Virus record (IMG/VR): IMGVR_UViG_3300044675_005544
Coordinates: 1 to 46,782 of that record
DNA: 46,782 nt
Direction: 5' to 3' (one strand)
Source of the DNA: a virus
Below the pieces are notes generated by a model. It had not been told where the DNA came from. It saw only the letters and a list, made by a program, of their open reading frames with translations, and made no database searches. How positions within the stretch are numbered: the first letter of the stretch is position 1; each line of letters opens with the position of its first letter. Of the stretch, positions 4,812-44,883 are shown in pieces. The translations under genes were made by a program, and so were the position numbers.

Positions 4812-4820
4812 ATTTCTCCT

Positions 4821-22100: not shown

Positions 22101-23160
22101 ATGTTGTGCTTGAAGATGTGACATTGGCGTTCAGAAGAGCATCAACATAGATGCCATCCGCACGATGAATCTCCCAGCCAGCATAGATATTAAAACGAAT
22201 ATCTTTCTTCATATATTTGCCAAAAGCGGAAGCCGAATTGAACAGGTTAAAATCTTTTAAAGCATTATCAAATGTTATTGAAGATGTATTGCTGCCGCTA
22301 CCAGCGATAGGGAGACTTGTCTCGTGCACATCCCTTACTTTTGAAACATTAAAGTTCATAACATAATCAGTCATGTCTAGTCTATAGATAGGAGACATCT
22401 CATTTATTCTTACATAATCGTATGGATTTTTTGTTGTATATACTGTTAATATAATTTTATTGATATCATTTGATGTAATACCATCAAGATAATGTTCAAA
22501 AAAATAATTGTCATCTGGTATTTCCGCATCTTGATTGTATACTAAATTAGATGTATTGTTATAAGCTTTAACATTATAAGCTTTAATTTGACCATTATAT
22601 TCCGATGTAACAACTTTAATTAAATTTACTTTTCTTTGTGTAAACACATATGTCAGCAATACTGCGGATGTAAGCTCGTACCCATTTAGTGTTGAATGGA
22701 GAGTACCAGTGCTTTTCGTTGCAGACTCATACCCGAATTCATAATTTTCATCTTTAGTGGAAGGGAGACAATGCCATTGACCATTAGCCGTAATTGTTTT
22801 ACCGTTAACATCTTTTGCATCACACACTGCCCATGTAAATGCTTGGCGTTCTATACCATTAATTGACTCATTTGGAGTAAAATAGAAATCCCTGCCTCTT
22901 GATCTGTTAAAAAGGTTTTCATTAGCAGAGAGCGTTCTTCCGTTTGACAGCATCCCCGTAACATTCAAATTGATTGCTGCTTCAGATTTCTGGGTGCATG
23001 TGTCATTACTGCTGGCAATTTCAGTATTTGAAAACTTATCAACATGCCTACTGTCAAGCCAATCAACCATAACTAATGGTTTTACACTCTGAGATATGTC
23101 ATCTATAGCCGCATTGAATGAGCTTGATATTTCTTTATCGTACAACCCGTATTGAAGCAT
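19165..23160 (-). CDS. Tail hub / minor tail protein with PA14-like and LamG-like modules
   Basis: This 1331-aa protein follows the tape measure and distal tail genes, the usual place of the central hub. Residues about 590-720 resemble PA14 (FDGYYVPSATGTYSFVIG, FRVYLNKVRIIDEW, YELRIEFF). Residues about 795-940 resemble a LamG/concanavalin sandwich (FSIQIYAKFHNG, YNHIAVTYKSNSVKYYINGA, SFFIDEFAVFNKCLSSQQI). The C-terminal 380 residues look like a gp27-type hub (VQEIIDNISLADFGRLYVDE). The N-terminal 270 residues include a possible carbohydrate-binding sandwich. The two lectin-like modules probably bind host surface glycans. Confidence 0.8.
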   Translation of the reverse strand: MLQYGLYDKEISSSFNAAIDDISQSVKPLVMVDWLDSRHVDKFSNTEIASSNDTCTQKSEAAINLNVTGMLSNGRTLSANENLFNRSRGRDFYFTPNESINGIERQAFTWAVCDAKDVNGKTITANGQWHCLPSTKDENYEFGYESATKSTGTLHSTLNGYELTSAVLLTYVFTQRKVNLIKVVTSEYNGQIKAYNVKAYNNTSNLVYNQDAEIPDDNYFFEHYLDGITSNDINKIILTVYTTKNPYDYVRINEMSPIYRLDMTDYVMNFNVSKVRDVHETSLPIAGSGSNTSSITFDNALKDFNLFNSASAFGKYMKKDIRFNIYAGWEIHRADGIYVDALLNANVTSSSTTWNVNSVNDFPDGGAGNYYLLTVEPNTVNKEIVIATKGTGNTFTIIQRGVGGTAARAHSSGSVVRFDIYEYVPFGVFYVDEWQGSSSSMTVSANLTDRSKFGQEKMLTKGFLLQDSTVAEAVEHLLLMTNFPKSDIQYLLNPAKTYKKNNAILHYGFDENSIDRANSQKVVSTSLRARLVQVPEGDLNSVRDIKLDANDRELNTYEKALDVKAYISPSLTTTSAAISTSNSLALDFTSGQFTNKDGDVVNEYFNGVFDGYYVPSATGTYSFVIGINKGGFRVYLNKVRIIDEWRIIDSGTSSQEYFFSDEYVLTAGNPYELRIEFFTEQFVSGEQFKISLGREYNGTQDSIYASECYTMVASDRIGNKNDYSYLTFASNSWTQTAGVNLIERSARRNDAIYRGSVAISQTSGVVSDSASKSVLLASNSYLRTPYHISYDVFNTSSNSYTGEFSIQIYAKFHNGSFSSDGEYISNWSNSTSNAGFEFFNNSSSNGFKFKTSTGTQTISSNSALSSSVYNHIAVTYKSNSVKYYINGALANTVTTSGTLVAFTGKSLTFGGRGAGFTSGSEVAPAAIRSFFIDEFAVFNKCLSSQQITNDYIETQMKEARVMPFIYGNDASVQEIIDNISLADFGRLYVDENNNARYEHFNRFFESSIDQHANVQYQLSDSSNIIDASYNVQLQANKIVIKVNGVANNLIEKQSLWRAEDPTTLGVTKLSLSMANNDVSMNVLSTDNPYFAKSGYLKIDNEIIKYSNTTSNSFLTLERAQFDTFAASHNANTLVREVKNYDLLFDKAPAFKIENPLITNMSTVNPAMIELVKYNPTPYGAKLILAASNNTTNGDIVYVEGENPLSGEKHFAGIAGIPVIVTDRTGDVKEQKAVLDDNVRRYGLKEIVIENEFITDLSHAQSLADFIISKMSDPVPVLNLNILPIPKLQLGDRIRISTMDSFDIINGDYWLISTDFAYGQTLTQSIVIRKVV

Positions 23161-24228
23161 TTACACCTCTTCCAGGCTCATAGAGCAATCCCAGAAGTAG
23201 ACATCATTTGGGATATCTCTTCTAATCAATGTTTCACTATAATCTTTCACTAATACATTATAACTTGTTTCTGAGTACGGCGTTGTTCCAGTCTCATCCA
23301 TATTAATTATCTTAAGGACATGATGCCTTGGGTCTTCAGCTACCCTCTTTATAAAATCACGACCACTATTACCGTCAACTGTGTAATTTATTGAATTCGG
23401 CAGCCATGACCAAGACATGCTAAATGTACGCCTACCAGCCCTTGAACTTGATTTGTAATATCTTGTTTTTCTGTTATTCCAATTAACAGTTTCTGTGAAT
23501 ATCTGATCTACGCCCATATCAAGCTTTCTATTATGAATCGTCAATGGTTTTCCATCAAGCAAAACAAGTGTCCTGTAAATACTTGCGTCAATACCGCTAG
23601 CAACATTTTGTGCAAAGACAATTGGTGTTTGGATAGCCAGAGCACCTACTTCTTGAAGAACAATTTGTATTGTTGCAAGAGATATTTTACCAGCAACAGT
23701 CAATTGCAATGATGATGACAATGCAGAAATTGCTTGTGAAATTTTAGTCCCAACGCTAGTTAGTGATGCAGAAGCTGAAACCACTGCAGCTGAGTTTGCA
23801 AACTTTACAGAAGCAGCGGTAATGTCTGCAGATGACGACAATGACACAGCAGACTCTGCAATTCTCGTAACTGTTTGAGCAACATCTACAGAAGCACTTT
23901 GAGAAGATTCCGAATACGAAAACTTCATCATTGTTACAGCAACAGTTGTGTTGGCAGAAACGGTGACTAGTGCATCTTGTCTTTCTGTAGCTACAGTAGC
24001 AGTTACTGATAGACCAGAGAGCACAACATCTGCAAAAACAATCTTATGTGCACTAACGCTAGAATCAGCCTGGACTGAAAGTACAATATCGCCATGAATT
24101 ATTCTATAAGAATCAACTGTTAAACTTGCAGATGAGCTTAAATCTACTACTACATCATTGTCATCTGCTAAATAAAAATCAATACCACTATTGAGGGGCT
24201 CGGAGAAGCTAAACCAACTGCTGGTCAT
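23161..24228 (-). CDS. Distal tail-like protein with beta-repeat extension
   Basis: The C-terminal 135 residues are a clear relative of the next protein upstream: both have a G/N-x-(x)-(L/V)-T-x-H-N-R-K start (LTIHNRKLDMG here, VTEHNRKFSMS there), FSMSWSWLP versus FSLSWSYLP, and YSETLIRRDI versus YSESLIRRDL. The N-terminal 200 residues instead hold about eight loose repeats of some 20 residues with Val/Ser/Ala alternation (VSLSSSADITAASVKFANS, VVSASASLTSVGTKISQA). The protein probably forms a ring or tail tip element with an added fibrous part. Confidence 0.65.
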   Translation of the reverse strand: MTSSWFSFSEPLNSGIDFYLADDNDVVVDLSSSASLTVDSYRIIHGDIVLSVQADSSVSAHKIVFADVVLSGLSVTATVATERQDALVTVSANTTVAVTMMKFSYSESSQSASVDVAQTVTRIAESAVSLSSSADITAASVKFANSAAVVSASASLTSVGTKISQAISALSSSLQLTVAGKISLATIQIVLQEVGALAIQTPIVFAQNVASGIDASIYRTLVLLDGKPLTIHNRKLDMGVDQIFTETVNWNNRKTRYYKSSSRAGRRTFSMSWSWLPNSINYTVDGNSGRDFIKRVAEDPRHHVLKIINMDETGTTPYSETSYNVLVKDYSETLIRRDIPNDVYFWDCSMSLEEV

Positions 24229-24229: not shown

Positions 24230-24625
24230 CTATCTTTCCGTCAATGTCAAAGAGACATCGTAATAAGTACAGCCAGTTGTTAAGTCTCTTCTAATTAGAG
24301 ACTCGCTATATGAATCAACATAGCAATCATACTCCGTAAAGCCAGCTCCTGGCTCTAGTTCAATCCCAACCGTTGCAAAAGCACTTGTATTCACAATACC
24401 AAACAAGAAATTTCTAGCGCTTCTATTATCAACAGTTTTAGCAACTAGATCTGGAAGATACGACCAAGACAAGGAGAATTGTTTCTTGTTTGTAGTGTAA
24501 TATCTTCTTCTATGACCAGAGGCGAGGTCAACCTCATTAGCCGAAATTTGTTCAGACATACTGAACTTTCTATTATGTTCAGTGACTTCTGTTCCGTTTA
24601 TAGTCATCAGATTGGATATAGACAT
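24230..24625 (-). CDS. Distal tail-like protein, single domain
   Basis: The 131-aa product matches only the C-terminal domain of the 23161-24228 protein, so the two are tandem paralogues. Lying directly after the tape measure gene is the standard place for the distal tail protein (Dit/gp19.1 class), though this copy is shorter than usual Dit proteins. The ATG at 24625 overlaps the tape measure stop in a TAATG junction and is preceded by AGAGGT. Confidence 0.65.
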   Translation of the reverse strand: MSISNLMTINGTEVTEHNRKFSMSEQISANEVDLASGHRRRYYTTNKKQFSLSWSYLPDLVAKTVDNRSARNFLFGIVNTSAFATVGIELEPGAGFTEYDCYVDSYSESLIRRDLTTGCTYYDVSLTLTER

Positions 24626-27600
24626 TACAGACCTCTGTTCAATCCATTATATGTGTTTATTACACGACTTTCAAGACCAGCTGCCTTTTGGTTCCTTGGA
24701 AGAACCGTGGTGTTGTAGCCCTTCATCATTGAATTAAACCATTCTGGCTCACCGATGAAATTGTCAACATAGATGTTTACATTTTGTGTTGAAGAACTGC
24801 TGGCTTGACCAGCTGACGAAACATTCATACCAGCGTTAGGCATCTTAATACTTGGAACAGATGGCATTGTTGGCAAGTTAGGCTTGGAGAGTCTAAGGCT
24901 ATTGAGTCTGTCCAGTGCGTCTGTGCCAATTCTCTGCACAGCCTTATGGTTGATTACATACTCACCACCATGAAGAACCGCTGGGATACCTTGCTGAGCA
25001 GGACCATAAGTCATGCCGCCAGTTCCGTATGCCATCCCACCCTTCATGTACATTCCAACTTTTCCACCATTGTAAAGAGGAGGAATTTTTGGAAGAGGAA
25101 TAAAGTCACTTACCTTCTTGCCTCCGATGAAAGGAAGTGGGACTCCCAAAATTGTTTTCGGAAATGCAAATCCACCGAGTATATCAACGGCTCTGTTGAA
25201 CAATCCACCTATACTGTTAACAACCAGTTTAAACGCTTGTGGGATCGCTGATATTGCCGCTGAAATAAAGTCAATAGCTCCACCGATTACATTCTTGATC
25301 GCATTTCCAATATTAGAGATAATTGGTTGGATGAAGCCCCACACGGAACTAAACGCATCTTTCAAACCGTTCCATACGCTGATTACTTTTTCAATTGCAA
25401 ACTGAATTCCATCTCTAATGAAATTACCAATCGTTTGGACAATGCCAACAATTAAGTCTTTAGTATTCTTCAATACTGCAACAAAAATGTCCCAGCCTTT
25501 CTTTACTAGATCAATTGCAAATCCAATGCCAGACTTAATTGCGTCAACAATCAAATCAAATATTGGCTTGAGGAAGCTCCATGAGATCTTTATTCCATTC
25601 CAGAAGTTATCCCATAAAAACATTACAATATCAATTGCACCCTTGATTCCATTTTGAATAATGTCTACTATCAAACCAAAAATTGGTCCAACCAAATCCC
25701 AGCCAGCTGTAATTTTGTCCCAAAGGAAACCAAAAATAACTGTTAGACCTTCAACTTGCATCTTGATAAAGTTAACAATAATATCCAAAATCCAATCAAA
25801 TACTGGCTTGATTAAATCCCAGCCAGCTGTGATGCCATCCCATACTTTTTGGAATACGAAACCAAGTGCATCAATCACTGGACTTAGGACATTGGAAATA
25901 ATTTCTACCATTGCATCAAATATTGGCTTAACGAATCCCCACGCCGCTTTGATTCCATCCCAAAAGGAACTAAAAATTTTGCCCAAAACAGTTACTGCTG
26001 GACCAATTACTCGCCAGATAATGCTCCAGAAACCATCAAAGACTGGCTTGGTCATATCCCAGCCAAATTTAATAATATCCCAAACTTTGCTAATGGATTT
26101 TGATAGGATATCCCACGCCCCACTAACAACACCTCTTACAACATTGCCAATAGTTTCTAGAAGAGGAAGCACAGCGTCTACCATTTCGGTTATAGTGCCC
26201 CAGACTAATTCAACAGCTCCCTTTATGAATCCCCAAGCAGCGGCTAATGGATTTTGCAGCACATCAATGATCTTTTCAAATATAACTCGTACAACACTCC
26301 AACCATTTTTAATAATTTCCCAAACAAGATTAATTGCACCGCCAAGAATTTCAAAAGCTTTTTTCCCAACAACACCTGCTATATCCCAAGCTTTTGAAAG
26401 CACTGTTCCAATCCATGAGGCAACTTGCTTCAAAACATCCCAAGCAATATTCACCGCATCACTGATAACTCCCCATATAGCAGAAGCAACTGTCTTTATT
26501 CCTTCCCAAGCAGCAGTGAAAACACTTCCAATCCATGACCCAAATGTTTTTAACAGTTCAAAAACAACATCAACTGCTTCTTTAAATGCATCCCATACTT
26601 TTGCAAGTACTGGACCAAATGTATCTTTCATCCAATTAAAAATAAACTTCGCAGCTTCATATATAATTGCAAATGCCGCAACAAATATTAGCCAGAGTGA
26701 ACCAATGTTCTCATGCCACCAATCAATAAAGCCTTTAACTTTCTCATAAATGAAGTCCCAAGCCTTAATTGCTACATCTTTAATTATATTAAACGCATCT
26801 ACGAGACCGCCAACAATAAACTTGCCAAGATCAATAAGCGCCCCAACAACTTTTTTAATAACAAACCATGTGCTTTCAAGAACAATTTTAATTGTCCATG
26901 TTGCAGCAATTGCAGCTACCAGTCCGAGTAATGCCACTAGGCGAGCAAAGAAAACAACTATTGGATTATTTGCAATAGCTTTAAACACATCAAACAATAA
27001 CTTAAACGGTGCAAGTAAAATATTTGTTATAGTTACACCAACTGGCGCAATGAATGAAATTATTTTTTCAAAAACACCTTTAACAATGTCAAATATTTTT
27101 CCAAATACATCTCTAACGAATTCAAATGAAACTTTAAATGGAGTAATTATTGGACCAGATATATCGCCAAAATCAAAACCACCAAACAGATTTTTTATAA
27201 AATCAATTACTCCAGAAACAATATCCTTTATCTTGTCAAAAACTCCCTTAATAATTTCAAAACCAACTTCAAAAGGACCAGATAGTGGACCCTTAAGGAA
27301 ATCAAACGCCTTAACAATCAAATCAATAGCTATCGTTACTATTCCAACAATAATGTCAAATGCAAGTTTGAATGCTTCAATGATAAGTTTGATTGGACCG
27401 CCAATTCCAACTGTGAAGAGCGCTCCGATGATCTTGTAAATAAAGTCAATTGCTCCAGAAATAATATCTGCAAGAACACTTACTATTCCAGAAGCCATGT
27501 CTATTATGAATCCAATAAATTTAAATAGTGGAACTTTGATAAAATCAAACACCATTGTTATTCCACGAAGTGCACCAACTATTACAACAACAACTCCAGC

Positions 27601-30600
27601 AATTGCCCCGACTATTCCCATTACAACTTTTTTGCCAAAATCAATAATTGGTCCAAACAATGAACTAAGAATTTGTTTAACACCATCAAAAACTGCACTG
27701 AGGAATCCAGATACTGGTTCTTTCAGCATTTGGAAACCAGTTACAAAGAAATCAATTACACTCTTAAATGTGTCGTTCACCATATCTCTGAACCATTTAA
27801 ACTTAATGTACATATAAACAATAACGCCGATTACAACTCCTACTGCAGCAGCAATAGCAAGACCAACTGCGCTTACCCCAGCCAGAGCAACACCAATAGG
27901 CTGTACGGCATACATCGCAGCAAGCATTAATGTTTCAAATGCTCCAGTTATTATTACAAATAGACCTTTTAACATCATAAAGCCTGCAATTACGCCAACA
28001 GCACCGAGGATTGCTGTTTTTACAGGACCGAGTGCTTTTGCAAGATTCTTTGCGCCATCAATCAACATTCCAAAGAAAGAGAAGCTCTTAGGGTCCATAG
28101 CGGAGCTAATATCTTCAACAGGCTTTCTCGCTAGGTGTTCTCCATATTTAACACTGATTACTTCCTTGCCCAAACTGTCATAACCGCTTCCGCCGCCTTT
28201 TGATCCAGAGTCACCACCGCCACCGCCAGATTGTGATCTAATTGCTTCTATTCTTGCAATTTTTTTCGCAAGATCCTCAAGCTCTGGGAAAAGCTTATTG
28301 TATTCAGCACCCATCCCAGCAAACAATGTTTTAAACTCATCATAAAGATCGCCCTTTAGAGCACGAAGCTTGCGCTTCATTTCGCCAATCATCGCTTCAG
28401 TAGCTGACCTGCCTGCTTCAATCCAAATAGCGTCTACATTCAGTCCGCCCATGATTGTTGAAATTTTTGTTATAAACGGAGTAACTGATTCAGAAATTAC
28501 ACCTTCACTAAATGCTTGCTTAAATGCATCTGGCATACCATTTGCCATTGCATAAGCAGAGCCAAGAATTGAACTTGCATCACCAGTTCTTATATCTGCT
28601 CCAAAGGACATCTTTGCCTGATCAACTAGCTTCTGCATTGTCATGCTAAACATTCCTACTGATGGATCGGTTGAATTCCTAATTATTGAAGGGAGTGATG
28701 TCATTGCAGCTTCAAATGTTTTGTTTATTTCTCCAGAGAAACCTTGAACAGCCCCGCCAATTTCACCTAGCAGAGCACTAAACTCTTCTTTTGTTGAGAA
28801 ACCCTTGTTCAAAATCTTTTCAAGGTTAATATCAAATTGCTTTTGCATTTCATCAAATGATTTAGCCATGACATCTTTTTCACGATTAATAACTGCAATA
28901 GCAATTGATCTCTGTTGCTCCTGAAGCGTCTTTGCCCTTTCAGTATCTAAATTGGTGATATCCTTGCCAGCGGCTTGGTCTGATTTTCTAAATGAAAGAT
29001 CAAGGGAGCGAACATCTTCAGTACGACCTTCGTACTTAGCTATCTTCCTTTCTCTCAAGTAGTTCTCTTTATCAAGAGATCTAGAACGAATCATTTCACG
29101 GCGCTTCTCTTCATAATCCATTTTTGCCGTTAATTCTTCTTCGGCTTTGCCGAGGGCTTCAATTGCAGAAATTTGCGTGTCAAAAGCTTTCATCGCTTCT
29201 TCTTTTTGCTTATCAATAGCTTCTTTATAATTTTCTGTAATCTTGCCTATTTGGTCATCAGCCTTTCCAAAGAAAGAACCAGTCCAGTCTTCCTTCATTG
29301 AAATAAGCTTGTCCTTTATGCCCTTAGCTATTGCTTCACCTAGGGATTCACCAGCCGCCTTCGCACCTGGGGCGTTCTTACCCGCACCGCCCAGTGTGTC
29401 GTTTAATGCTTTCTTAACATCTGCAGGGTCTGATAATTGCGATGCCAGTGCAGCATTAACATCAGCACCAATCTCTTCTCCATACTTTCTAGCGACAGCT
29501 TTCTTTATCTTCCCAAATATATTTTCTTCTATAAAGCCAGCAGCACTACCCAACCCTTGAGCTATACTGGTGCCGATAGTTGTAGAAATACCTTTAACTC
29601 CAGATTTAACTCTTCCAATATTTTTATCAAGAAGATGTGCGGCACCAGCGGCTGCTATGAGCCCTGCACCCATAGCGGCTACACCCGCTCCCATAGGTCC
29701 AGTGAAGAGAGCAAGAACTCCACCTATACCGATCATCATTGATCCAAAGAACAATGCTACTTCTTTTCCGAAATTCATTATGTACATAAATGCATCAATT
29801 GTTGCATTCAGAACCGCTTCAATCATAGAAGACAAAAGTGGTCCAAGTTTTGGAAGCAAATTAGCTAAGAACCCAAATAATTTTTGTAGTGAATTAAACG
29901 CTTCATAGGCAAGTGACAATAATAGACCTTTGAAATTCTTAATAGCCGAGGCATCGCCTCTAAATACGCCTGCAATAGTTCTTCCTAAAAGAATAAATCT
30001 ATTGATCATTCTTGTTAACACAGGAACAATTACTTCCTGCATGTATCTCATGCCTGGACCTTTAGCAAACCTACTAAAGGCATCTGCTACATATTTTACA
30101 AGTCTTGACAAAGTGTGCAGAGCTCCAGACACAGCGTTAGCGCCATTACTTGCCTTGCCCAAACCGCCAAATTTACCAATCATCTCCATTAATGGTTTTG
30201 ACAAAGTTATGATTGCTTCTCTTATAGCAACCCATGCATTTCTAAAGTTTTCAATTGCTGCATTATTCTTAACCAAACCTGATTTCATGGACATGATAAA
30301 GCCAGCTATAAGAATAAATACAGGAGCTATCAGCAGCATTGCAAATTTTAATTTAATAGCCATTGTCAAAGCAGAGAACATTGTTTTAGTAACGCTTGCG
30401 AACATTGCTCGTAAACCTCTTCCAACACCAGTGTAAGCACTTGCCTGAATAATGAGTCTTTGGAAGAGAGGGATTGTTTCTGCAAGACCAGCGGCTACTC
30501 TCTTCTTAGCAACAGCGTCAAGTGCAACTCCAACCGCTTTCATTCTTGTTGTATGAGATGTGAACAAACCAGCTGCAGCGCTAGCGGCTCTTAGCGCCCC

Positions 30601-33600
30601 AGTAACTTTGTTCATTCCAGTAAATAGAAGGAAAGTCCATGCTTTTATAATTTTACTATTTCTTAATGAAGCAATCATTGTTGAAAAAGCTGGGGCTACT
30701 TCACTCTTAACAACTGTGCCGAGTGCTCTCATAACAAATGCAGTCTCTACTGCGCTTGTTTTTATTGAATTCATTGACATTCTATTGATGACAGCAAGTG
30801 TTTTAAAAGCTCTTCCTAAGAGACCAGTTTCATCAATAATCTTTCTTCCACCAGACAATAGGTATGTCATTGACTTAGCAACTTTCATTGACATGTCAGT
30901 ACCAGAGGCAACTGTGCTTAGCATTGTCTTGACATACAACTGTGCAAATCTTGTTAAGCCATTACCAGCAAGCGAGAAGCCTTTATTAAATCCACCAGCA
31001 ATTGAGCCAGTTATCATCTTATTAAATGAACTTAGCTTGCTCTTAACTTTGTCAAGACTAGACATGTCCATATCTTTGAATGCAGCTTTTGCTCCAGACG
31101 AAGCAGTAGCTGCTCTTGATGCAGCAACACTGCTCAAAACACGAGCACGAATATCTGCCGCTCTTGTTGCTGCCCTATCTGCTCTAGCATCTTCCATTAC
31201 AGCAGGAATACTTGTTGGTGTTTTTACACCAGTTAATCTCTTAAGCCTGTCAAGTCTTTCATCAGAAAGAGGGACACCAGTTCTTGATTCAATTCTGTCT
31301 TTTAATGTCTTATAATTCTGCCTAGCTTTTGCTTTGACAACTAACGGGTCGGTGGCAGGAAGAGCCTTGGCTGCATCCTTAGCGACCTTTGCAGAATCTT
31401 TAATCTTAAGATTTAACTTATCCGCACTAATTAATTTCCCTTGGAAGATGTTTGGACCCTGGAAGAAGTTTGGTCCTTTAAAGAAATTGGCAAGTGAGCT
31501 ATCAAACTGCAATGTCTGCTTTTCAATTGCTTTAACAATTGCACTACCACCACTAGCAGACGCAGGAATTGCAGCAGCAGGGGTTCTTGGTCTTGGTGTT
31601 CTTGGAGCTTTAGGTGTACCAGCTGACCCTGCACCAGCACCAGAAGCCGCACTAGATGCAGCACCTGTTAGTGCTGGCGCTACTGCAGCAACATCTGTAG
31701 ATGCAGCAACTACAGCCTTAGCCAGTTTCTCTGTTGCAATTTTTGCGTTCTGTGTTGCTGACGCAAGCTTTTCTTTTGCTGTCTTCAGTCTGCTTGTTGA
31801 AGCACGACCTAGCTCCTCAGCATTTGCTTGAGCAGCAGCTGCTTCAGTTTGTGCTTTTACAAGAGTATTTAATTTTGTCTTTAGATCTTTTTGAGCGGCT
31901 TGAACTTTTACACCATTTGCAGACGCAAGTTGCTCTGCAGTCATTGTTGCGATTTGGCTTTCTAGTTTAGCAATTTGAGCTACTTTAGCTTTACCCAGCG
32001 CTTTTGTAATTTGCTCATCAACAGTAGCCGCAGTTACTCCCTTTGCCGTTGCCCCAGTCAAAACCTCTTTTGCACCAGTAAGTTTTGTTGTAGAAGCTGT
32101 TTCGGCTTTCTCTACAACTGTAGCCTCTGTTTTAGCTGCAGCTTCAACTTCAGTAGCGGTTGTGTTTTTAACCTTAGATTCAGTTTCAACTTTTGTAGCC
32201 GCAGTTTCAGCAACCGTAGCTTCTTTTTTAACTTCTGCTGCAGCAGTCCCAGCTTTTCTAGCTTGGATGTCTCTTACAATTTGATCCGCTTCTTCCTTAC
32301 TCTTTTGTTGAGCAACTTTTTGAGCTTCCTTTGCGGCTTGTCTTTCTGCAGCACGATTGCCAACAGCAGTACCACTACCAACATTTGCGGCGCTAGCTTG
32401 AGCTTTAGTTCCAGCCGCTACTCTTGCGTCAAGAACCTCTCTAACACGAGCATTCAGATCTTTAAATTGGAAACCTCTAAAACCTTTCTTTGTTTTTTCA
32501 ACTTGAGTTACTGCATAAGATGCAGCTCCCATAGAATCAACAAAAACACCCTCTACAGCTTTCCCTAAATCACTTACCGATAGAGCAGTTCCTTTTGCAA
32601 GCTTGTTCAGGAGAACGCCAGCTTTAGATTTAGCGTCTGATACAAATTTTGTTATTTTACCCTTACTGTCAGTTATAGTTGCTGTTTTAAAACCAGCAAC
32701 ATCTTTGCCCATCAAATCAAGAACTTGTTTTCTCATCAAGTCAAGTCTGCCCTTTACGACTTTAGCTTGGGATGCTGTTAATTCTTGGTCTACTAATTTA
32801 AGACCACCTTGGAGAGCCTCGCCAACTGCAGCTCCTGGTTGTGACGAAGCTACCGCTATCGCCGTAGCTCTAATTAATTGTCTTTTAGCATCAGAAATAG
32901 AAGCAGGAAGTGCGTTTACTGTTTCATTAATAGAGTCTTCAATTAACTTTCCAACTGTAACAACACCAGCTTTAGCCTTGCCCATTCCACCAGAAATTAT
33001 TTTTCTAATTGGTTGTGCAGTTCTACCGCCAGAGTCAGAAGGAATTAACGCTTCTCTTTGTTTTGCAAAAGCCTTTGCAAGCTTTTCTCTAGCCGAAATT
33101 TTTGCAGGAGAAACATCTGTTTTCATAGATGCAAGTTCCGCTACAAGCTCGTCACCGCCATTCTCTATTCCTTTATAAAAACTTGTTACGCCATCAACAA
33201 CTTTTTTATTTTTCAATATTGCGGCTTCAGCAGCTGGGTCAAACTGATCAGATGTCGGGAGGTATTTGGTTAAGTCAACTCCCATGTTTTCAGCCATTTG
33301 CCTAGCGGCTGCTTTTTTAAGAGCAGCTTTTGGCTTGCCTTCAAATTGATCTTCCAAATCAACCATGTGAGATTTCAAATCTCTTGCAATATTTGCGTCA
33401 GTAGAATCAATTAATTTTTGACTTAATTTTTCTATTTCAAGATCATGTAATATTTTTGCCCTGATATCTGGGTTCAGAACAACTGGATTGTATACACTTT
33501 TTGGACCAGATACAACTCTTGGCATATTACCAACACGATCTGAGAATGTATTTGCATATCTAACTGGATTATCTGGTCCAATCCCAACTCCCCCTGGTGT

Positions 33601-36600
33601 TCTACCACTAGTTAGGTTCTGAAGTGGGGCTTCATTCCGCATCAAATCATTTTGAGCATTTAGTAGTTGAGATGTTGCTGGTGATGCAGGGATTATTTTT
33701 TCATTAATTGCAGATCTAGCCAGCACCAATTCTTCTTTAAGATCAGCTATTTCTTTATTATAACCATCAACAAGTTGATTAGCTACATCAGTGCTTCCTT
33801 TTTTCGCAACTTCCAAATTTGCTTTTGCTTCAGCTAATTTTTCCTCTATTGCTGCAATTTCAGCTTTAGGTCTTGTTGTATATACCTCTTCAACACCAGG
33901 AGGCGGGGTTACGCCTGGCATTGCGTCAAGCTTCAATGCTTCCACTGCATTCATTGCTACAACTGCTTCTTGTGCTCTCTTTGTTTCTGCAGCAATTCTC
34001 TTACGGGCGGATTTTGATACACCAGATGGCTTAACTCCTGGAGTACCGTCACCTTTTTGCAGCATTTGCGACATTGTTGCTGATATCTGATCTCTTACCT
34101 TTGCCGATTGCTCTAGCGATCTTCTATCAAGAAGAAGCTCATCAACAAGAGATTTGTAAGCATCTTTTTGAGCGTCAACTTGCTTATCAAATAATTTGTA
34201 TATTGGTTTGCCTCTAGAGCGACTCAACGATCCGAGAGGTGAAGCGGTGCCTTTTTCAAATTGCTTTGTAAGATTTTGGAAGAATTGATTTTTCGCTCTC
34301 TTAGTTAACTCAACTTCTTTATTAGTAGTTCTAATAAATTCATATTCAGCTGGAATTGTTTGTCCAGCATCATCAAAGAATTTAGCAATTTCTTTATACG
34401 AAAGTTTTACAACAGCAGCTTGTCCAGTTGGAGCTTTTGCTACTTTTGAAGCAACCTTTGTAGCTTTGCCAACTTGACTTGTTGCTTTTTCAACTGCAGC
34501 CTGAGCAGCTGCAGAGTTATCAACAACTTCAGCAACTCCAGCAACAGTACTCTCTACTGCAGCAACTGCTTGCTCAGTAATTTTCTTTACAGATTTTGCT
34601 GCTTTTTTAGCACCACCCTTTGGCGTTGTAGCTTTGCTCTTTACTCCCTTAACCGCTTTTTCAACTTTCTTAGGAGTTTCAGTTGCGGCTTGTGCTACTG
34701 AAGATACAGTCTCTTCAATTGGCGCTACTGCTGCAACGACAGCTTCAGATACAACCTTTTCAACTTTTGCCTTGACTTTTCTTGCACCACCCTTTGGTGC
34801 AGCAGCTTTGTTCTTTACTTCCTTGACAGCCTTTTCAACTTTTTTAGGAGTTTCAGTTGATGCTTCTGTTACTGCTTCAACTGCCTCTGCTACAGGGGCA
34901 GTTGCTGCACTAACAGCCTCACCAACAGCTTTTTCAACTGTTGTCTTTACTTTCTTTGGTGAACCACGAGGTGACTTTCCTTTTGGCTTAGTAGCTTCCT
35001 TAACAACTTCAGTAGCTTTTGCGACTTCTTCTTGAACAGTAACACCCAACGCATCTAGCTGCGCCTTAGCCTCAGCAGCCACTCTTTCAACACTTGCCGC
35101 AATAGGTGCACCAATAGTTGCGGCTTTTGCTACATTCTTTGCTGATGGAATTGATATCTTTCTCGTGCTTGCTTGATCAAATCTTGGGTCTGTGAGATAA
35201 CGACTTGGCGCTGCTGGAGCAGATGGAGTCGCTGGCATAGGAACTGCGGTACGAGGAACAGTTGGTGTTCCACCTGTTGCTGGAGTTTTTGGAGTGCGTG
35301 GTCCAGTTCCAGTACCGCCAGGACCAGAAGTTCCGCCTCCAAACTTGTTTCCAATAAATGTGTTATTTTGGAAGATAGAACCTTTCAAACCTTTTGTTAT
35401 TTTATCCGCTGTACTTGTAGCAGCTTTCTCTGTTGCTTTTGCAGTTGATTCAGCAATCTTCTCAGGGATTGTTCCCATATCTGTAAGCATTGATCTAATC
35501 AGTTCGTCAGTATTAGGCAATCCAAGCTTTGTTGATTTTCCAAGTAATGTCTTAATTGATGTTTTATCAGTAGGACCAACTACTCCTTTATTTTCAAAAA
35601 GTTCCTTTACTGGCTGAGACACACCAGAAAGATCCGTTGGTCGCATTTTTCTTCTGCCCAAAAATTTATTTGAATACCCTGGTGCGTTCTTGTCCTGTTG
35701 AAGCAAGAATTGACCATCAGTCATTTGAGTTAACTTATTGTAACCTTTAGTTATGTTTGGGTTTTCCAATATTTGAGCAAGCGACACGCTTGTAGCACGA
35801 ACACCTTTCAATGTTGCACCAAGACCATCTGCTGCATTAAGCATTTTGCCTAGCGAGCCAATAATGCCGCCAAAAGCCATTTTGAATGTTGCAGCAAGTA
35901 ATCTAATTTGCGGTATCAGTATTAAAGTAAAAGCTAAAAAGCCTATAATTTTTTGAGTAAAAGGAGAAAGCTTCTTTAAGAAATCCCCAATGCCCTGTAT
36001 CACTGGGAGTATTGCGCCAATTACTTTATCAACGATTGGTGCAAGCGCTCTTCCTATCTGCAGCATTGCTTCTTTCAGCTTATTAAACTTAACAGCTACT
36101 GAATCAACAGCCAACCCCAATTCTTGTTCCATCTGGATTGAAGCCGCCGCAACTCCACCGACAGCTTCGGTAAAGAAAATCTTTCCAGCCTCAGTACCTA
36201 CTTTGGACAAATAATCAGCAGTGTCTGTGTATGCTCCTCTTAGGGCAGCGTCTGCATCTTTCTGCCCTTGCTGCACCAGACGAGCTTGAATTGTATATTC
36301 ACCATTAACTTCTTGGGTAGCTTGTCTATGGACATTGGCTAGATCAACAATTTTCTTTACTGAAACAGCTTCATAACCATGCGCTGTTAGGCGTGCATTG
36401 ATACTAGATTCCAATTGAGCGGCAATTTTTCCTTCCGCTGTTGATGTATTGTCAAGAGCTTTTTGAAACACAGCCAATTGCCGAATTGAAGTTTCCATTC
36501 TTGGACCTTGACGAACACCGAACAGTCTTGCAAAGAATTCCAATGTTCCTTGCTCGCCTTTAATACTTAAGAGATTATTAAAACCATCAACAAGTTGTTG

Positions 36601-37854
36601 AATATTTTCCATTCCAACACCTGCTGCATAGTTAAAATCATCACCGAGAGCTTGATTTAGTCCTTGAATAATTTGCGTATTTTGTTTAGTCATGGCAACC
36701 ATTCTCTGCAATGACACCTTGATAGAGTTAGCCGAAGCACCAACCTGGAACCCAGCAGCAACCATTGGAGCCAACATTGCGGCTGTCTCAGTCATTGACA
36801 AACCGAATGTAGTAGCGGCTGCTGATACTTCAGGGAAAGCATCAGCGAGGTCTTTCAATGACAATGTTGTTTTGTTTTCAACCATGTTGAAAAGAGCAAG
36901 TTGTCCTTGCACTTCACTCAAAATCTGCCCCATCATCTTAGGGCTAGACAAGTCAAGACTGTAGCCTTCAGCCGCAGCCATGTCTCTTCTAACTCTCAAA
37001 ATATTTTGATAGATTGATTGAATAAAGTTTTGAGACTGAGTAATATCAAGATTACCCAACTTCTCCACTGCGGCAGTGAACTCTGTCAATCTAACAATTG
37101 CAGTGTCTGGAACACCTAATTCAGCAAAGTCACCAGCAAGAGATTGAACAAGAACTCTGGATGTACCATACTTTGCCGTAATCTTGTCTAGCTCATAGCC
37201 TAAAATTCTAACCTTGTCACTTGCCTTTTCAATAGCTTCAGCACCAGTTCCGAATTCATCAGCAATAAGCTTAGTTAATCTTCTTGTTTCCTGGTCTAAT
37301 CTTGCATAAGAAAAGAAAGCGCTTCTTAATGACATCAACAAAGGCGCAGTTGCAGCCGCAAAGTAGTATGATGTCCTTTGGGCTATTTGCCCAGAAGCTT
37401 GAAGTTTTTGACCAAACTTCTCAATAGCGTTTGTTTTCAAAACTCTATTCAATGCGTCAGCGGAAGAAACAACAGAAGTTAGATGACTATTAGCTTGTCT
37501 ATATGACGCTGAAAGCGCTGGAGACATTGTCTTACCACTAGCCGCAACTCTTGCTTGAGCTGCCGAAAGTGCATTTAATTGCTGAGTAGCTTGCTCTACG
37601 ACTCTATTTGTTAGAACTTGACTTTTACGATATTCAGCAAGAGCGTTATGCACTAAACCTGTGCTAAGCCTTGTTCTGTCTAATGCTTTATTTAGACTGT
37701 CTTGAATTGAAAAACTGCGTGTAGCGCTTTGAGAAAGGTTAACTAATTGCTGGGATAATGCAACAACATTGGTTGTTAAACCTGCAACGGATTCAGCACC
37801 AGTAACCGATGCATCTATACCTATTCGTGTTGTTGAGTCACCAGTGTCAGACAT
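24625..37854 (-). CDS. Giant tape measure protein, 4409 aa
   Basis: This gene fills over a quarter of the window. Residues about 150-450 match the TP901-type tape measure core (AAMLAPMVAAGFQVGAS, IKVSLQRMVAMTKQ). Hydrophobic segments lie near 635, 2510 and 3280. A region of about 1500 residues (roughly 700-2265) is Ala/Lys/Pro-rich and includes H1-like repeats at 962-1095. A charged coiled coil spans about 2855-2990. Eight 40-residue Trp repeats lie at 3805-4124. The end has the common Gly-rich motif IPAVLHGGEYVINHKAV. It sets tail length and passes through the tail during DNA delivery. At about 0.15 nm per residue the tail could near 660 nm. The ATG lacks a Shine-Dalgarno. Confidence 0.95.
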   Translation of the reverse strand: MSDTGDSTTRIGIDASVTGAESVAGLTTNVVALSQQLVNLSQSATRSFSIQDSLNKALDRTRLSTGLVHNALAEYRKSQVLTNRVVEQATQQLNALSAAQARVAASGKTMSPALSASYRQANSHLTSVVSSADALNRVLKTNAIEKFGQKLQASGQIAQRTSYYFAAATAPLLMSLRSAFFSYARLDQETRRLTKLIADEFGTGAEAIEKASDKVRILGYELDKITAKYGTSRVLVQSLAGDFAELGVPDTAIVRLTEFTAAVEKLGNLDITQSQNFIQSIYQNILRVRRDMAAAEGYSLDLSSPKMMGQILSEVQGQLALFNMVENKTTLSLKDLADAFPEVSAAATTFGLSMTETAAMLAPMVAAGFQVGASANSIKVSLQRMVAMTKQNTQIIQGLNQALGDDFNYAAGVGMENIQQLVDGFNNLLSIKGEQGTLEFFARLFGVRQGPRMETSIRQLAVFQKALDNTSTAEGKIAAQLESSINARLTAHGYEAVSVKKIVDLANVHRQATQEVNGEYTIQARLVQQGQKDADAALRGAYTDTADYLSKVGTEAGKIFFTEAVGGVAAASIQMEQELGLAVDSVAVKFNKLKEAMLQIGRALAPIVDKVIGAILPVIQGIGDFLKKLSPFTQKIIGFLAFTLILIPQIRLLAATFKMAFGGIIGSLGKMLNAADGLGATLKGVRATSVSLAQILENPNITKGYNKLTQMTDGQFLLQQDKNAPGYSNKFLGRRKMRPTDLSGVSQPVKELFENKGVVGPTDKTSIKTLLGKSTKLGLPNTDELIRSMLTDMGTIPEKIAESTAKATEKAATSTADKITKGLKGSIFQNNTFIGNKFGGGTSGPGGTGTGPRTPKTPATGGTPTVPRTAVPMPATPSAPAAPSRYLTDPRFDQASTRKISIPSAKNVAKAATIGAPIAASVERVAAEAKAQLDALGVTVQEEVAKATEVVKEATKPKGKSPRGSPKKVKTTVEKAVGEAVSAATAPVAEAVEAVTEASTETPKKVEKAVKEVKNKAAAPKGGARKVKAKVEKVVSEAVVAAVAPIEETVSSVAQAATETPKKVEKAVKGVKSKATTPKGGAKKAAKSVKKITEQAVAAVESTVAGVAEVVDNSAAAQAAVEKATSQVGKATKVASKVAKAPTGQAAVVKLSYKEIAKFFDDAGQTIPAEYEFIRTTNKEVELTKRAKNQFFQNLTKQFEKGTASPLGSLSRSRGKPIYKLFDKQVDAQKDAYKSLVDELLLDRRSLEQSAKVRDQISATMSQMLQKGDGTPGVKPSGVSKSARKRIAAETKRAQEAVVAMNAVEALKLDAMPGVTPPPGVEEVYTTRPKAEIAAIEEKLAEAKANLEVAKKGSTDVANQLVDGYNKEIADLKEELVLARSAINEKIIPASPATSQLLNAQNDLMRNEAPLQNLTSGRTPGGVGIGPDNPVRYANTFSDRVGNMPRVVSGPKSVYNPVVLNPDIRAKILHDLEIEKLSQKLIDSTDANIARDLKSHMVDLEDQFEGKPKAALKKAAARQMAENMGVDLTKYLPTSDQFDPAAEAAILKNKKVVDGVTSFYKGIENGGDELVAELASMKTDVSPAKISAREKLAKAFAKQREALIPSDSGGRTAQPIRKIISGGMGKAKAGVVTVGKLIEDSINETVNALPASISDAKRQLIRATAIAVASSQPGAAVGEALQGGLKLVDQELTASQAKVVKGRLDLMRKQVLDLMGKDVAGFKTATITDSKGKITKFVSDAKSKAGVLLNKLAKGTALSVSDLGKAVEGVFVDSMGAASYAVTQVEKTKKGFRGFQFKDLNARVREVLDARVAAGTKAQASAANVGSGTAVGNRAAERQAAKEAQKVAQQKSKEEADQIVRDIQARKAGTAAAEVKKEATVAETAATKVETESKVKNTTATEVEAAAKTEATVVEKAETASTTKLTGAKEVLTGATAKGVTAATVDEQITKALGKAKVAQIAKLESQIATMTAEQLASANGVKVQAAQKDLKTKLNTLVKAQTEAAAAQANAEELGRASTSRLKTAKEKLASATQNAKIATEKLAKAVVAASTDVAAVAPALTGAASSAASGAGAGSAGTPKAPRTPRPRTPAAAIPASASGGSAIVKAIEKQTLQFDSSLANFFKGPNFFQGPNIFQGKLISADKLNLKIKDSAKVAKDAAKALPATDPLVVKAKARQNYKTLKDRIESRTGVPLSDERLDRLKRLTGVKTPTSIPAVMEDARADRAATRAADIRARVLSSVAASRAATASSGAKAAFKDMDMSSLDKVKSKLSSFNKMITGSIAGGFNKGFSLAGNGLTRFAQLYVKTMLSTVASGTDMSMKVAKSMTYLLSGGRKIIDETGLLGRAFKTLAVINRMSMNSIKTSAVETAFVMRALGTVVKSEVAPAFSTMIASLRNSKIIKAWTFLLFTGMNKVTGALRAASAAAGLFTSHTTRMKAVGVALDAVAKKRVAAGLAETIPLFQRLIIQASAYTGVGRGLRAMFASVTKTMFSALTMAIKLKFAMLLIAPVFILIAGFIMSMKSGLVKNNAAIENFRNAWVAIREAIITLSKPLMEMIGKFGGLGKASNGANAVSGALHTLSRLVKYVADAFSRFAKGPGMRYMQEVIVPVLTRMINRFILLGRTIAGVFRGDASAIKNFKGLLLSLAYEAFNSLQKLFGFLANLLPKLGPLLSSMIEAVLNATIDAFMYIMNFGKEVALFFGSMMIGIGGVLALFTGPMGAGVAAMGAGLIAAAGAAHLLDKNIGRVKSGVKGISTTIGTSIAQGLGSAAGFIEENIFGKIKKAVARKYGEEIGADVNAALASQLSDPADVKKALNDTLGGAGKNAPGAKAAGESLGEAIAKGIKDKLISMKEDWTGSFFGKADDQIGKITENYKEAIDKQKEEAMKAFDTQISAIEALGKAEEELTAKMDYEEKRREMIRSRSLDKENYLRERKIAKYEGRTEDVRSLDLSFRKSDQAAGKDITNLDTERAKTLQEQQRSIAIAVINREKDVMAKSFDEMQKQFDINLEKILNKGFSTKEEFSALLGEIGGAVQGFSGEINKTFEAAMTSLPSIIRNSTDPSVGMFSMTMQKLVDQAKMSFGADIRTGDASSILGSAYAMANGMPDAFKQAFSEGVISESVTPFITKISTIMGGLNVDAIWIEAGRSATEAMIGEMKRKLRALKGDLYDEFKTLFAGMGAEYNKLFPELEDLAKKIARIEAIRSQSGGGGGDSGSKGGGSGYDSLGKEVISVKYGEHLARKPVEDISSAMDPKSFSFFGMLIDGAKNLAKALGPVKTAILGAVGVIAGFMMLKGLFVIITGAFETLMLAAMYAVQPIGVALAGVSAVGLAIAAAVGVVIGVIVYMYIKFKWFRDMVNDTFKSVIDFFVTGFQMLKEPVSGFLSAVFDGVKQILSSLFGPIIDFGKKVVMGIVGAIAGVVVVIVGALRGITMVFDFIKVPLFKFIGFIIDMASGIVSVLADIISGAIDFIYKIIGALFTVGIGGPIKLIIEAFKLAFDIIVGIVTIAIDLIVKAFDFLKGPLSGPFEVGFEIIKGVFDKIKDIVSGVIDFIKNLFGGFDFGDISGPIITPFKVSFEFVRDVFGKIFDIVKGVFEKIISFIAPVGVTITNILLAPFKLLFDVFKAIANNPIVVFFARLVALLGLVAAIAATWTIKIVLESTWFVIKKVVGALIDLGKFIVGGLVDAFNIIKDVAIKAWDFIYEKVKGFIDWWHENIGSLWLIFVAAFAIIYEAAKFIFNWMKDTFGPVLAKVWDAFKEAVDVVFELLKTFGSWIGSVFTAAWEGIKTVASAIWGVISDAVNIAWDVLKQVASWIGTVLSKAWDIAGVVGKKAFEILGGAINLVWEIIKNGWSVVRVIFEKIIDVLQNPLAAAWGFIKGAVELVWGTITEMVDAVLPLLETIGNVVRGVVSGAWDILSKSISKVWDIIKFGWDMTKPVFDGFWSIIWRVIGPAVTVLGKIFSSFWDGIKAAWGFVKPIFDAMVEIISNVLSPVIDALGFVFQKVWDGITAGWDLIKPVFDWILDIIVNFIKMQVEGLTVIFGFLWDKITAGWDLVGPIFGLIVDIIQNGIKGAIDIVMFLWDNFWNGIKISWSFLKPIFDLIVDAIKSGIGFAIDLVKKGWDIFVAVLKNTKDLIVGIVQTIGNFIRDGIQFAIEKVISVWNGLKDAFSSVWGFIQPIISNIGNAIKNVIGGAIDFISAAISAIPQAFKLVVNSIGGLFNRAVDILGGFAFPKTILGVPLPFIGGKKVSDFIPLPKIPPLYNGGKVGMYMKGGMAYGTGGMTYGPAQQGIPAVLHGGEYVINHKAVQRIGTDALDRLNSLRLSKPNLPTMPSVPSIKMPNAGMNVSSAGQASSSSTQNVNIYVDNFIGEPEWFNSMMKGYNTTVLPRNQKAAGLESRVINTYNGLNRGL
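25483..26442 (-). repeat. Eight tandem 40-residue (120-nt) Trp-anchored repeats in the tape measure
   Basis: Starting at W3805, a Trp codon recurs every 120 nt for eight units: WDVLKQV, WEIIKNGW, WGTITEM, WDIIKFGW, WDGIKAAW, WDGITAGW, WDKITAGW and WNGIKISW. The consensus of the later units is W-D-x-I-x-A-G-W-D-L-x-K-P-I-F-D, then a hydrophobic helix ending before the next W. Units 4 to 8 are clearly homologous; units 1 to 3 keep the spacing but are more diverged. Trp/Phe-spaced repeats are known in tape measure proteins. Confidence 0.9.
34570..34971 (-). repeat. Histone H1-like Lys/Ala/Pro repeats in the tape measure
   Basis: A 58-residue unit is repeated. TETPKKVEKAV begins at T1000 and again at 1058; PKGGA(R/K)K follows each, and a diverged partial copy (PRGSPKKVK) starts near 962. 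The underlying DNA repeats TAGGAGTTTCAGTTG (plus strand) at 34671 and 34845, 174 bases apart. The composition resembles basic, disordered H1-like tails. Confidence 0.8.
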
Positions 37855-37901: not shown

Positions 37902-38267
37902 CTATTCACCTTTCTTTACCGTTTCATAACCCATTCCGAACTTCATGTCAAGAATGTCATGGACCTGCGCAGCCCTAGGTGGTTCTGGATCGTACCAGTC
38001 ATCGTCAAAATCAACATCAGCACCTTGTGCAGCCGCAGCAATTTTCATCGCCGTACTTGTTTCATTCATGCAAGCACGATATAACAAAAATAATTCGTTC
38101 AATGTCAGATGGGTCTCAAGTGATTCAAAATTCACCCAAGAACCCGTTCTGACAAACACTTCCGATTCGTATTTTAGAAGAGGGAGATCCTCCCAAGATT
38201 GGTCAGATGAACCAGCCCCCTCTTCGCCTAGAAGGAAGGGTCTGAACCCATTGCAGCCGACATGAGT
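37902..38267 (-). CDS. Tail assembly chaperone, C-terminal part made by -1 frameshift
   Basis: This frame is open from 38267 to the stop at 37902, overlapping the chaperone gene's end by 40 bases and lying in its -1 frame. It has no ATG; the first candidate is a GTG at 38159 with a poor ribosome binding site, and coding-like sequence extends upstream of it (EEGAGSSDQSWEDLPLLKY). It lies directly before the tape measure, exactly as the T part of G/GT chaperones does. Residues such as LTLNELFLLYRACM fit the family's helical extension. The fusion would be about 210 aa. An independently started 85-aa protein is the alternative. Confidence 0.7.
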   Translation of the reverse strand, partial: THVGCNGFRPFLLGEEGAGSSDQSWEDLPLLKYESEVFVRTGSWVNFESLETHLTLNELFLLYRACMNETSTAMKIAAAAQGADVDFDDDWYDPEPPRAAQVHDILDMKFGMGYETVKKGE

Positions 38268-38533
38268 TCACCGAATGAACGCAAGTCAAGCACATCTTCT
38301 AGCTTCTCTTTATCGTTACCCAATTCTGGGTCAACCGCTGCAAGAGCAATACCAGCAGCTTCCACCATAATGTCAATATCTTTGTCATCAAGTGTGTCTT
38401 CGCTCTTAAGATCCTTAACAACCTTCATAAACTTTCTAAGATTACGAATTGTCAAAGGCTTAATCGTTCTTGTCTTTCCATCCGCAAACACGATTTCTGT
38501 GCCAGCGAGAATATCTTTATTTTTATCGCTCAA
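38228..38533 (-). CDS. Tail assembly chaperone (G-like)
   Basis: The product is a typical small helical chaperone placed between the tube protein and the tape measure: FADGKTRTIKPLTIRNLRKF then alternating helices and an acidic stretch, ending SDPSF at the stop. I choose the TTG at 38533 because an AAGGATGGA stretch precedes it and the longer frame (to 38596) would translate through a stable hairpin. It probably binds the tape measure and the tube subunits while the tail is built. Ribosomes that slip near 38234-38240 would make the longer form. Confidence 0.72.
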   Translation of the reverse strand: MSDKNKDILAGTEIVFADGKTRTIKPLTIRNLRKFMKVVKDLKSEDTLDDKDIDIMVEAAGIALAAVDPELGNDKEKLEDVLDLRSFGELMSAAMGSDPSF

Positions 38534-38561
38534 AGTATTTCCATCCTTATGTCTCGTATAT

Positions 38562-38613
38562 AAAGGGCTTCGCCCCTCGGTTATTAAGTTTATCACAAAA
38601 TACCAAGGGGCGA
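38562..38613 (-). promoter_or_regulatory. Two mutually exclusive hairpins between tube and chaperone genes
   Basis: On the minus strand, UCGCCCCUUGG (38613-38603) can pair with CCGAGGGGCGA (38580-38570) in an 11-bp stem with one G-U pair. The downstream arm can instead fold as AGGGGC-GAA-GCCCUU (38577-38563), a terminator-like hairpin followed by a short U/A tract. Both structures use the same GGGGCGA. It could be an attenuator or a processing site that lowers chaperone output relative to tube protein. Confidence 0.5.
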
Positions 38614-38642: not shown

Positions 38643-39224
38643 TTATGCGGTTTCGTCAACGATTTTGCCGTACTCGTAACCGACATCTGCTACTGTTGGC
38701 AAAATTCTAAAGCCAACTGTGAACATTGTTGCTTCTGCACGCTTCATTGCAATTGTGGATGATTCCATTGAAATTGCACGCTTTGTGTAGAATTTACGGG
38801 TAAGCAAGTCACCTGCTGTTGAACCAGGTGCTGTACCTGTAACAACGAGTGCCTTCTCGTAAGGGATTACTCCCTGTGCGCCAAACAAGAATGTCTTTGT
38901 ATTTGCGCCATCATTGTTTGCCTTAACCGAATCTCCGCCTGTTACATCATCGTAGTTCCACGCTGTTGCAAGGTTATTAAGAGTTCCTTCTGCAAGGGTT
39001 GTCTTAACCATTACCTTTACCTTTGACTGAATTACCTTAGCGGCATCGCCAAATTGGTCAATTTCAATATCAACCATGTCTGGTTCCCACGAGATTTCCA
39101 AACCGTTTTGTGTTGCTCCAATGTCAGCAAAGTTATTCATTGCTGCAATGCTTGTTGCGTTAGCATTTGTACCAAGTTTAATGGTTGCCTCGCCAACGAT
39201 AATGTTAGAAACATTAACTGCCAT
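38643..39224 (-). CDS. Major tail tube protein
   Basis: The 193-aa protein has the expected size, position and beta-rich character of a siphovirus tube subunit: EISWEPDMVDIEIDQFGDA, then VKVMVKTTLAEGTLNNLATA, and a long final strand region. The ATG has the best ribosome binding site in this block, AGGAGGAAG, fitting a protein needed in many copies. It is followed by paired hairpins that could protect or end the transcript. Tube protein precedes chaperones and tape measure in most siphoviruses. Confidence 0.82.
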   Translation of the reverse strand: MAVNVSNIIVGEATIKLGTNANATSIAAMNNFADIGATQNGLEISWEPDMVDIEIDQFGDAAKVIQSKVKVMVKTTLAEGTLNNLATAWNYDDVTGGDSVKANNDGANTKTFLFGAQGVIPYEKALVVTGTAPGSTAGDLLTRKFYTKRAISMESSTIAMKRAEATMFTVGFRILPTVADVGYEYGKIVDETA

Positions 39225-40588: not shown

Positions 40589-41515
40589 TTAAACCACATA
40601 GTCCATAACAAACAATGTGTAGTCCATAAGCAATATGTCTGCATCAATGTTCCCTGTTGACTCATAGAAGTTTTGACCTGTTTGAATTTTGAGGACATCC
40701 ATATCCGCACTATAAATACCATGCCTACGATAGATTGAGTCATCATTCATCATATCTTCCAAGAGAAGGTCGGCTGCCTGTTCTATGTTATTGGGAACAA
40801 ATCTCCAACCAAAATCCCCTTCAATTCTATACACGCTTTCTGGATTAAATTTATTAACAATTAAAAGAACATTTACGCTATCAAGAATTGATTTTCTAAA
40901 CTGCACATAGTAAGAGCCGCCAAAACTGTATTGCTCTTTAATCTTTTCAATATGGTTCATTGTTGCATCTTCATAGTCATGGAGAACAATTTCGTCATTA
41001 GTTCCTGGATCCGCAGTGACCTTTCTCAATGTTGCTATTGGGTTTGGAAGATGAATTGATTTCTTCCCAGAACCCATGACTTCAAGATATTTATTTGGAT
41101 AATAATCAAAAGACTGACCACAAAAAGTATTAATAATATTTCTTACTTTTTTTTCTAATTTATCAAACTTGTCATACCATTCATCTTCAAGAGTCGGGTG
41201 ATCCTCAAAAAATGTATCAATGTCTATATACGGGGTGTAGACATTAAAGTACTGAGATTGAGTGTACGAAACAGCACTCACTGTGTAAGTAAAGTCAGCT
41301 CGGTATTTCCCCGCAGCATTTAGAATATAGATACCAGACGCTTGTTGACCATAGGTGATGGTATAAACTCCAGTGCTTGATCTTGTTGCGTTTGTTGGAC
41401 CAGAAACAAGTGATCCAAACTCATGATACAAACTAACTGACACCACATTAGATGTTGGATCACTCGGAAGTGTTAAAGTTAGTGTTTTACTTGTTTCAAT
41501 CTTTACATCATCCAT
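40589..41515 (-). CDS. Head-tail adaptor with N-terminal Ig-like domain
   Basis: Residues about 1-95 form an Ig-like beta sandwich (TLTLTLPSDP, GVYTITYG, YRADFTYTVS), and the remainder is a helical connector protein: DTFFEDHPTLEDEWYDKFDKL, RNIINTFCGQSFDYY, and a C-terminal bundle with EQAADLLLEDMMNDD. The latter matches the size and helix pattern of gp15-like adaptors that dock under the portal. The Ig-like extension may decorate the neck. No Shine-Dalgarno precedes ATG 41515, but TATAAT lies 6 bases upstream. Confidence 0.65.
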   Translation of the reverse strand: MDDVKIETSKTLTLTLPSDPTSNVVSVSLYHEFGSLVSGPTNATRSSTGVYTITYGQQASGIYILNAAGKYRADFTYTVSAVSYTQSQYFNVYTPYIDIDTFFEDHPTLEDEWYDKFDKLEKKVRNIINTFCGQSFDYYPNKYLEVMGSGKKSIHLPNPIATLRKVTADPGTNDEIVLHDYEDATMNHIEKIKEQYSFGGSYYVQFRKSILDSVNVLLIVNKFNPESVYRIEGDFGWRFVPNNIEQAADLLLEDMMNDDSIYRRHGIYSADMDVLKIQTGQNFYESTGNIDADILLMDYTLFVMDYVV

Positions 41516-44854: not shown

Positions 44855-44883
44855 ATTATATCTCAGAGTTTTTTATTCGTCAT
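44855..44883 (-). promoter_or_regulatory. Putative promoter for the lysis genes
   Basis: A perfect TATAAT (44860-44855, minus strand) lies exactly 17 bases from ATGACG (44883-44878), which matches TTGACA at the four central positions TGAC. The -35 overlaps the end of the upstream coding region. Two holin genes and the endolysin follow directly. Confidence 0.45.

Follow-up and report, generated by a model that had tools for sequence, protein, structure and literature searches.

The DNA analysed here (the window) is a linear IMG/VR virus record of 46,782 bases, whose minus strand carries the gene of a tape measure protein (TMP) at 24625..37854. The frame runs from ATG to stop, encodes 4,409 amino acids and has no internal stop codon. 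A single uninterrupted frame of 4409 codons had been described in an earlier sequence-only reading; this was borne out, the minus strand being a detail which that reading did not give. The assignment of the protein as a phage TMP on the basis of its sequence is strongly supported. The TMP profiles phrog_5448 and phrog_1272 matched residues 21-490 (3e-17) and 3873-4264 (6e-49), respectively, in agreement with the tape measure features previously noticed at both ends, and more than a dozen further PHROG profiles of TMPs matched as well. The gene lies after those of the tube protein and the tail assembly chaperone and before the tip genes. A helical and repetitive region with hydrophobic segments of the TMP type is present in the protein, the structure models being of low confidence.

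Genes around the tape measure gene

Read upstream of the TMP gene, the minus strand has first an 85-aa frame and a chaperone, then the tube protein and the head-to-tail adaptor, and beyond these a probable capsid protein. The major tail (tube) protein (193 aa; 38643..39224, minus strand) was assigned by weak matches to phrog_476 and phrog_885 and by synteny, and the adaptor (308 aa; 40589..41515, minus strand) by tblastn to the adaptors of Streptomyces BE phages. Immediately after the TMP gene, a conserved 131-aa protein (24230..24625, minus strand) was recognized by synteny with Karimacvirus phages. It is followed on the same strand by a 355-aa protein (23161..24228), which has a region in common with the 131-aa protein and appeared as the second match per genome, and by a minor tail protein of 1,331 aa (19165..23160), in which PA14 and concanavalin/laminin-G-like domains were recognized. 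No match to a tail sheath was found among the tail genes scanned, so that the tail should be non-contractile.

Two frames ahead of the TMP gene overlap in the −1 frame. The G-type tail assembly chaperone (122 aa; 38228..38596, minus strand) is syntenic with IchabodCrane gene 56, and its T-type −1 frame extension was placed at 37902..38267 on the same strand (listed as an ORF at 37902-38159). The overlap is conserved among the relatives. The putative slip site in the window is CCCTTCC (38234..38240, minus strand), whereas the textbook CCCAAAC stands at the same codon position in relatives with a short module A (see below). Judged by this sequence arrangement, the region has the features of a chaperone pair made by a programmed −1 frameshift upstream of the TMP gene.

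The window being a linear fragment of 46.8 kb from a metagenome, it was considered that the frame might be an assembly chimera or a fusion of genes and that the true TMP might be shorter. The same frame is, however, present in two separate IMG/VR records, with an identical protein in one (G001) and a single difference, P874S, in the other (G002). Orthologues of 4,092-4,729 aa with the same module order were found in many further contigs, and dN/dS against relatives was 0.05-0.49 across all five TMP modules, which indicates protein-level constraint on the whole frame. A chimera is thus very unlikely, to the point of being nearly negligible.

The Streptomyces phages IchabodCrane and CeilingFan (Karimacvirus, Boydwoodruffvirinae, Stanwilliamsviridae) share with the window the gene order major capsid protein, adaptor, tube protein, chaperone, TMP and 131-aa protein, and homology in the adaptor and in the N-terminal TMP module (25-30% identity). 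Their TMPs (2,099 aa) are about half the length of that of the window and showed no clear match to its modules A or B. The window phage was not placed in Stanwilliamsviridae or Karimacvirus: the adaptor is only about 26% identical, no closer phage record was found and synteny alone is shared. The nearest described relatives infect Actinomycetota; two queries of the GTDB genome collection revealed no related proviruses, and no tRNA gene was found in the window. As a guess, the host could be a low-GC aquatic actinobacterium.

Modular layout of the tape measure family

Anchored on the conserved pieces of the window protein, 28 family TMPs were split into modules N, A, M, B and C. Among about 30 related TMPs, N, M and C are conserved and A and B are variable. 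In the window, all on the minus strand, module N comprises residues 1-700 (35755..37854), A residues 701-2424 (30583..35754), M residues 2425-3215 (28210..30582), B residues 3216-4257 (25084..28209), and C residues 4258-4409 with the stop codon (24625..25083). Each of the 30 relatives searched in the first round has a conserved module N, whose homology in the TMPs of Gordonia, Tsukamurella and Rhodococcus is weak. Module M contains two strongly hydrophobic segments (residues 2504-2522 and 2699-2717), and C is a conserved C-terminus with an HGGEY motif.

The family TMPs span 1,878 to 6,438 residues. The lengths of A are bimodal, either ~200-300 or ~1,520-2,190 aa with none intermediate, and those of B range from 39 to 2,609 aa. 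All four combinations of A and B length were found: both short (G021, G020, G028 and G048; TMPs of 1,878-1,950 aa), A short and B long (2,706-3,764 aa), A long and B short (G045; 3,967 aa, of which A takes 2,171 and B 107), and both long (the window and others). Module B itself occurs in three states: it may be near-absent, consist of a Trp-rich helical repeat of 40 residues, as it does in the window, or hold enzyme-like cargo that is not helical. In a tree of adaptor and tube protein, members with a long B stood side by side with members lacking it, so B was probably gained or lost more than once. Over the 3.4-fold span of TMP lengths, the tube proteins are 60-97% identical. What is new is this modular TMP family and not the length of one protein.

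One relative, G004 (L084), has an adaptor 98% and a tube protein 97% identical to those of the window, whereas module N of its TMP is just 44% identical, B is different and the next gene is strongly diverged. The stretch from the TMP gene onwards therefore looks like a recombined unit. The total lengths of the two TMPs are nearly equal (4,375 aa in G004 and 4,409 aa in the window).

Modules A and B

Module B of the window is a Trp-rich helical repeat with 40/11/29-residue periodicity, to which PHROG TMP profiles match. The autocorrelation of its hydrophobicity at lag 40 was 0.35, compared with a maximum of 0.08 in shuffled sequences. Taken together, the B modules of the window and of its closest relatives repeat at lags of 11, 29 and 40 residues, with lag-40 values of 0.35-0.41 against a shuffled maximum of ~0.1. 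Trp residues spaced by 7, 11, 29 and 40 positions were found in module B only, in an 11-11-18 pattern. The TMPs of the lactococcal phages p2 and TP901-1 contain Trp/Phe repeats of the same 11-11-18 = 40 residues. The TP901-1 protein has fewer than 1,000 residues, and a counterpart of module A of the window was found in none of 50,697 phage records.

Insertions and deletions in B tend to keep the helical register. Their lengths were compatible with it in 64 of 120 cases in B and in 27 of 87 cases in A (permutation p ~0.002, a rough and optimistic value because the comparisons reuse sequences and include pairs with a non-repeat B), and indels of exactly 40 residues numbered 12 in B versus 1 in A, where indel lengths are arbitrary. 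Structure prediction, which had been proposed as a check, gave helix in the AlphaFold2 (AF2) models of both modules, although at low confidence. Module B was modelled as a nearly unbroken helix with a mean pLDDT of 32, a value at which the model adds little. The model of A (mean pLDDT 53) was ~65% helix, a percentage added up manually over the helices listed, in ~40 short pieces with breaks and with a single small alpha/beta patch near residues 1148-1226.

Module A is rich in Ala, Lys and Pro, lacks Trp and carries a net charge of +92. The inserted low-complexity region pointed out in the sequence-only reading is real and corresponds to this module (residues ~701-2424). Its joints are Pro-rich, and a unit of 58 residues (174 bp) is duplicated in tandem at 34602..34953 on the minus strand. 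The 58-residue difference between the window and G008 maps to this duplication. Trp was absent from A in 15 of 15 long-A members, in which A is Ala- and Lys-rich with a net charge of +45 to +131. Module A of the window had no match in Pfam, PHROGs or the 50,697 phage records, and a family profile of A gave no meaningful match to PDB sequences. With no convincing match in any of these collections, an enzyme in module A was rejected. An RNA polymerase inside the window TMP was likewise rejected, no DxDxD motif being present, and no HExxH motif was found anywhere in the protein. Close to the end of A lies a conserved SLANFFKGPNFFQGPNIFQG motif (window 31429-31503; TMP residues 2118-2142). A pattern search detected it in most members with a long A, and in none with a short A.

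The interval between M and C is of a different kind in several relatives (G004, G009, G035, G040, G043, G044 and the members with short A and long B), where helical periodicity is absent and proline is more frequent. HExxH zinc-protease-like motifs were found there in three TMPs, at residues 4054 (L088), 2527 (L089) and 5156 (L186), and a transglycosylase-like match to PF06737 in L189 (G043), L188, L191 and L192, above the curated cut-off in G043 only. In L093 (G018), part of the interval resembles by eye a HipA- or kinase-like domain, for which Pfam gave no match. Such cargo-like pieces are shuffled among the phages. The longest TMP seen here, with 6,438 uninterrupted residues, is L186 (G035, IMGVR_UViG_3300020193_000009), in which ~2,609 aa are non-helical, with an HELMH motif and the HGGEY region in two copies. 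No second contig across its M-C region was found, so this gene rests on a single contig. In the TMPs of 5,358 and 6,438 aa, ~2,000-2,600 aa each come from cargo-like sequence, and their interpretation as record-length rulers was rejected in view of the non-periodic M-C interval and the HExxH motifs. Because of such cargo in the longer relatives, a value in nanometres should not be derived from TMP length alone.

Tail length and competing readings

From deletions in the TP901-1 TMP, the rate is 0.145 nm per residue, and 127 residues do not contribute to the ruler (PMC5099701). The tail of CeilingFan measures 346-365 nm (PMC13191466), which corresponds to 0.165-0.174 nm per residue of its TMP; in phiCbK, a TMP of 1,964 aa accompanies a tail of 300 nm (PMC3556154). 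For the window, the TP901-1 rate with the 127-residue offset gives 621 nm, the usual 0.15 nm per residue 661 nm and the CeilingFan rate 727-767 nm. If every residue counts, which assumes an extended chain and a contribution of module A, we thus infer a tail of ~620-770 nm. Without A (N, M, B and C, ~2,690 aa), 0.15 nm per residue would give ~403 nm. A tail of more than half a micrometre is likely, and this hinges on module A. The ~660 nm put forward in the sequence-only reading falls inside the range from the two calibrations, but it assumes that A counts; otherwise ~400 nm would be closer. As to the earlier comparison with the tails of Thermus phage P74-26, even 770 nm is below the more than 800 nm of P74-26 and P23-45. 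Those phages also have giant single-chain TMPs (5,006 and 5,002 residues, respectively), and the window phage should not match them in length. Compared by description, their TMPs contain an N-terminal RNA polymerase with a DFDGD motif and a metallopeptidase domain, both motifs being absent from the window TMP.

The best-supported interpretation is that of a ruler; the exact tail length is uncertain. Its identity, intact frame, modules, periodicity and frameshift architecture were observed in the window TMP; the extended state in the tail, the counting of A and the tail length are what we infer. The phage is probably an uncultured one with a long non-contractile tail of ~620-770 nm, in which a chaperone-held chain would gain length from both B and A. 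The frameshift-made chaperone pair would keep the chain of 4,409 residues in an extended state while the tube protein polymerises along it from the tip, at the C-terminal end of the TMP, to the N-terminal end, and chain length would thereby set tail length. Module B may act as an uninterrupted amphipathic helix, built of Trp/Phe units of 40 residues, which gains or loses length with the register kept, and A as a loosely constrained helix-and-linker spacer adding further length. Two features of the family speak against a ruler of full length: stretches of A are rich in Pro, and the module might fold, undergo processing or lie outside the ruler; and the non-helical cargo between M and C in relatives means that in this family the length of the TMP need not equal that of the ruler.

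It is rather unlikely, though to be taken seriously, that the protein is a TMP whose module A (~1,720 aa) folds, loops out or is ejected as cargo, leaving a tail of ~400 nm. The bimodal rather than graded lengths of A, its fast evolution, arbitrary indels, lack of Trp and positive charge would fit this, as would the ~40 broken short helices and the alpha/beta patch of the AF2 model and the precedent of P23-45, whose TMP includes an RNA polymerase (PMC10770324). However, no enzyme family or fold was recognized in A and neither DxDxD nor HExxH occurs in the protein, and the polymerase-bearing chain of P23-45 (5,002 aa, over 800 nm) still yields ~0.16 nm per residue overall. It is quite improbable that the extra length of an otherwise ordinary TMP serves mainly a membrane channel and cell-wall penetration instead of tail length. 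The many hydrophobic segments of B and M point in that direction, as do the HExxH motifs or transglycosylase-like stretches which several relatives have in the M-C interval; but B of the window is a regular helical repeat, deletions of such a repeat shorten the tails of TP901-1, and no enzyme match beyond a generic profile was obtained for it.

For the ruler reading, a more specific form is quite possible, if short of probable: tail length may be set by mixing and matching modules. In this form B, a helical ruler of 40-residue units which preserves the register, and A, a Lys/Ala-rich spacer that is independent of it and bimodal in length, would both run through the tube, and in sister phages whose head and tube proteins are nearly unchanged the place of B would be taken by enzyme-like cargo. 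The ruler rule has so far been tested mainly through deletions in a few small TMPs. This family provides a natural set in which similar tube proteins are combined with TMPs differing up to 3.4-fold through separable modules, and the earlier view of the window as a good test of the rule was right, since the variation of A and B makes it testable. The tails of members with A short and B absent, A long and B absent, A long and helical B, and cargo in B would separate the measuring parts from the passengers. The family is also a caution against inferring the length of a tail directly from that of its TMP.

Other genes of the window attracted attention. An endolysin-like gene with VanY peptidase and peptidoglycan-binding domains (43497-44339) lies within the structural gene block, and a 621-aa protein without a family match (44873-46738) contains repetitive stretches, with tandem repeats at 45204-46303. 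Two glycosyltransferase genes and a nucleotidyltransferase-like gene are clustered at 2506-5974, which suggests sugar modification.
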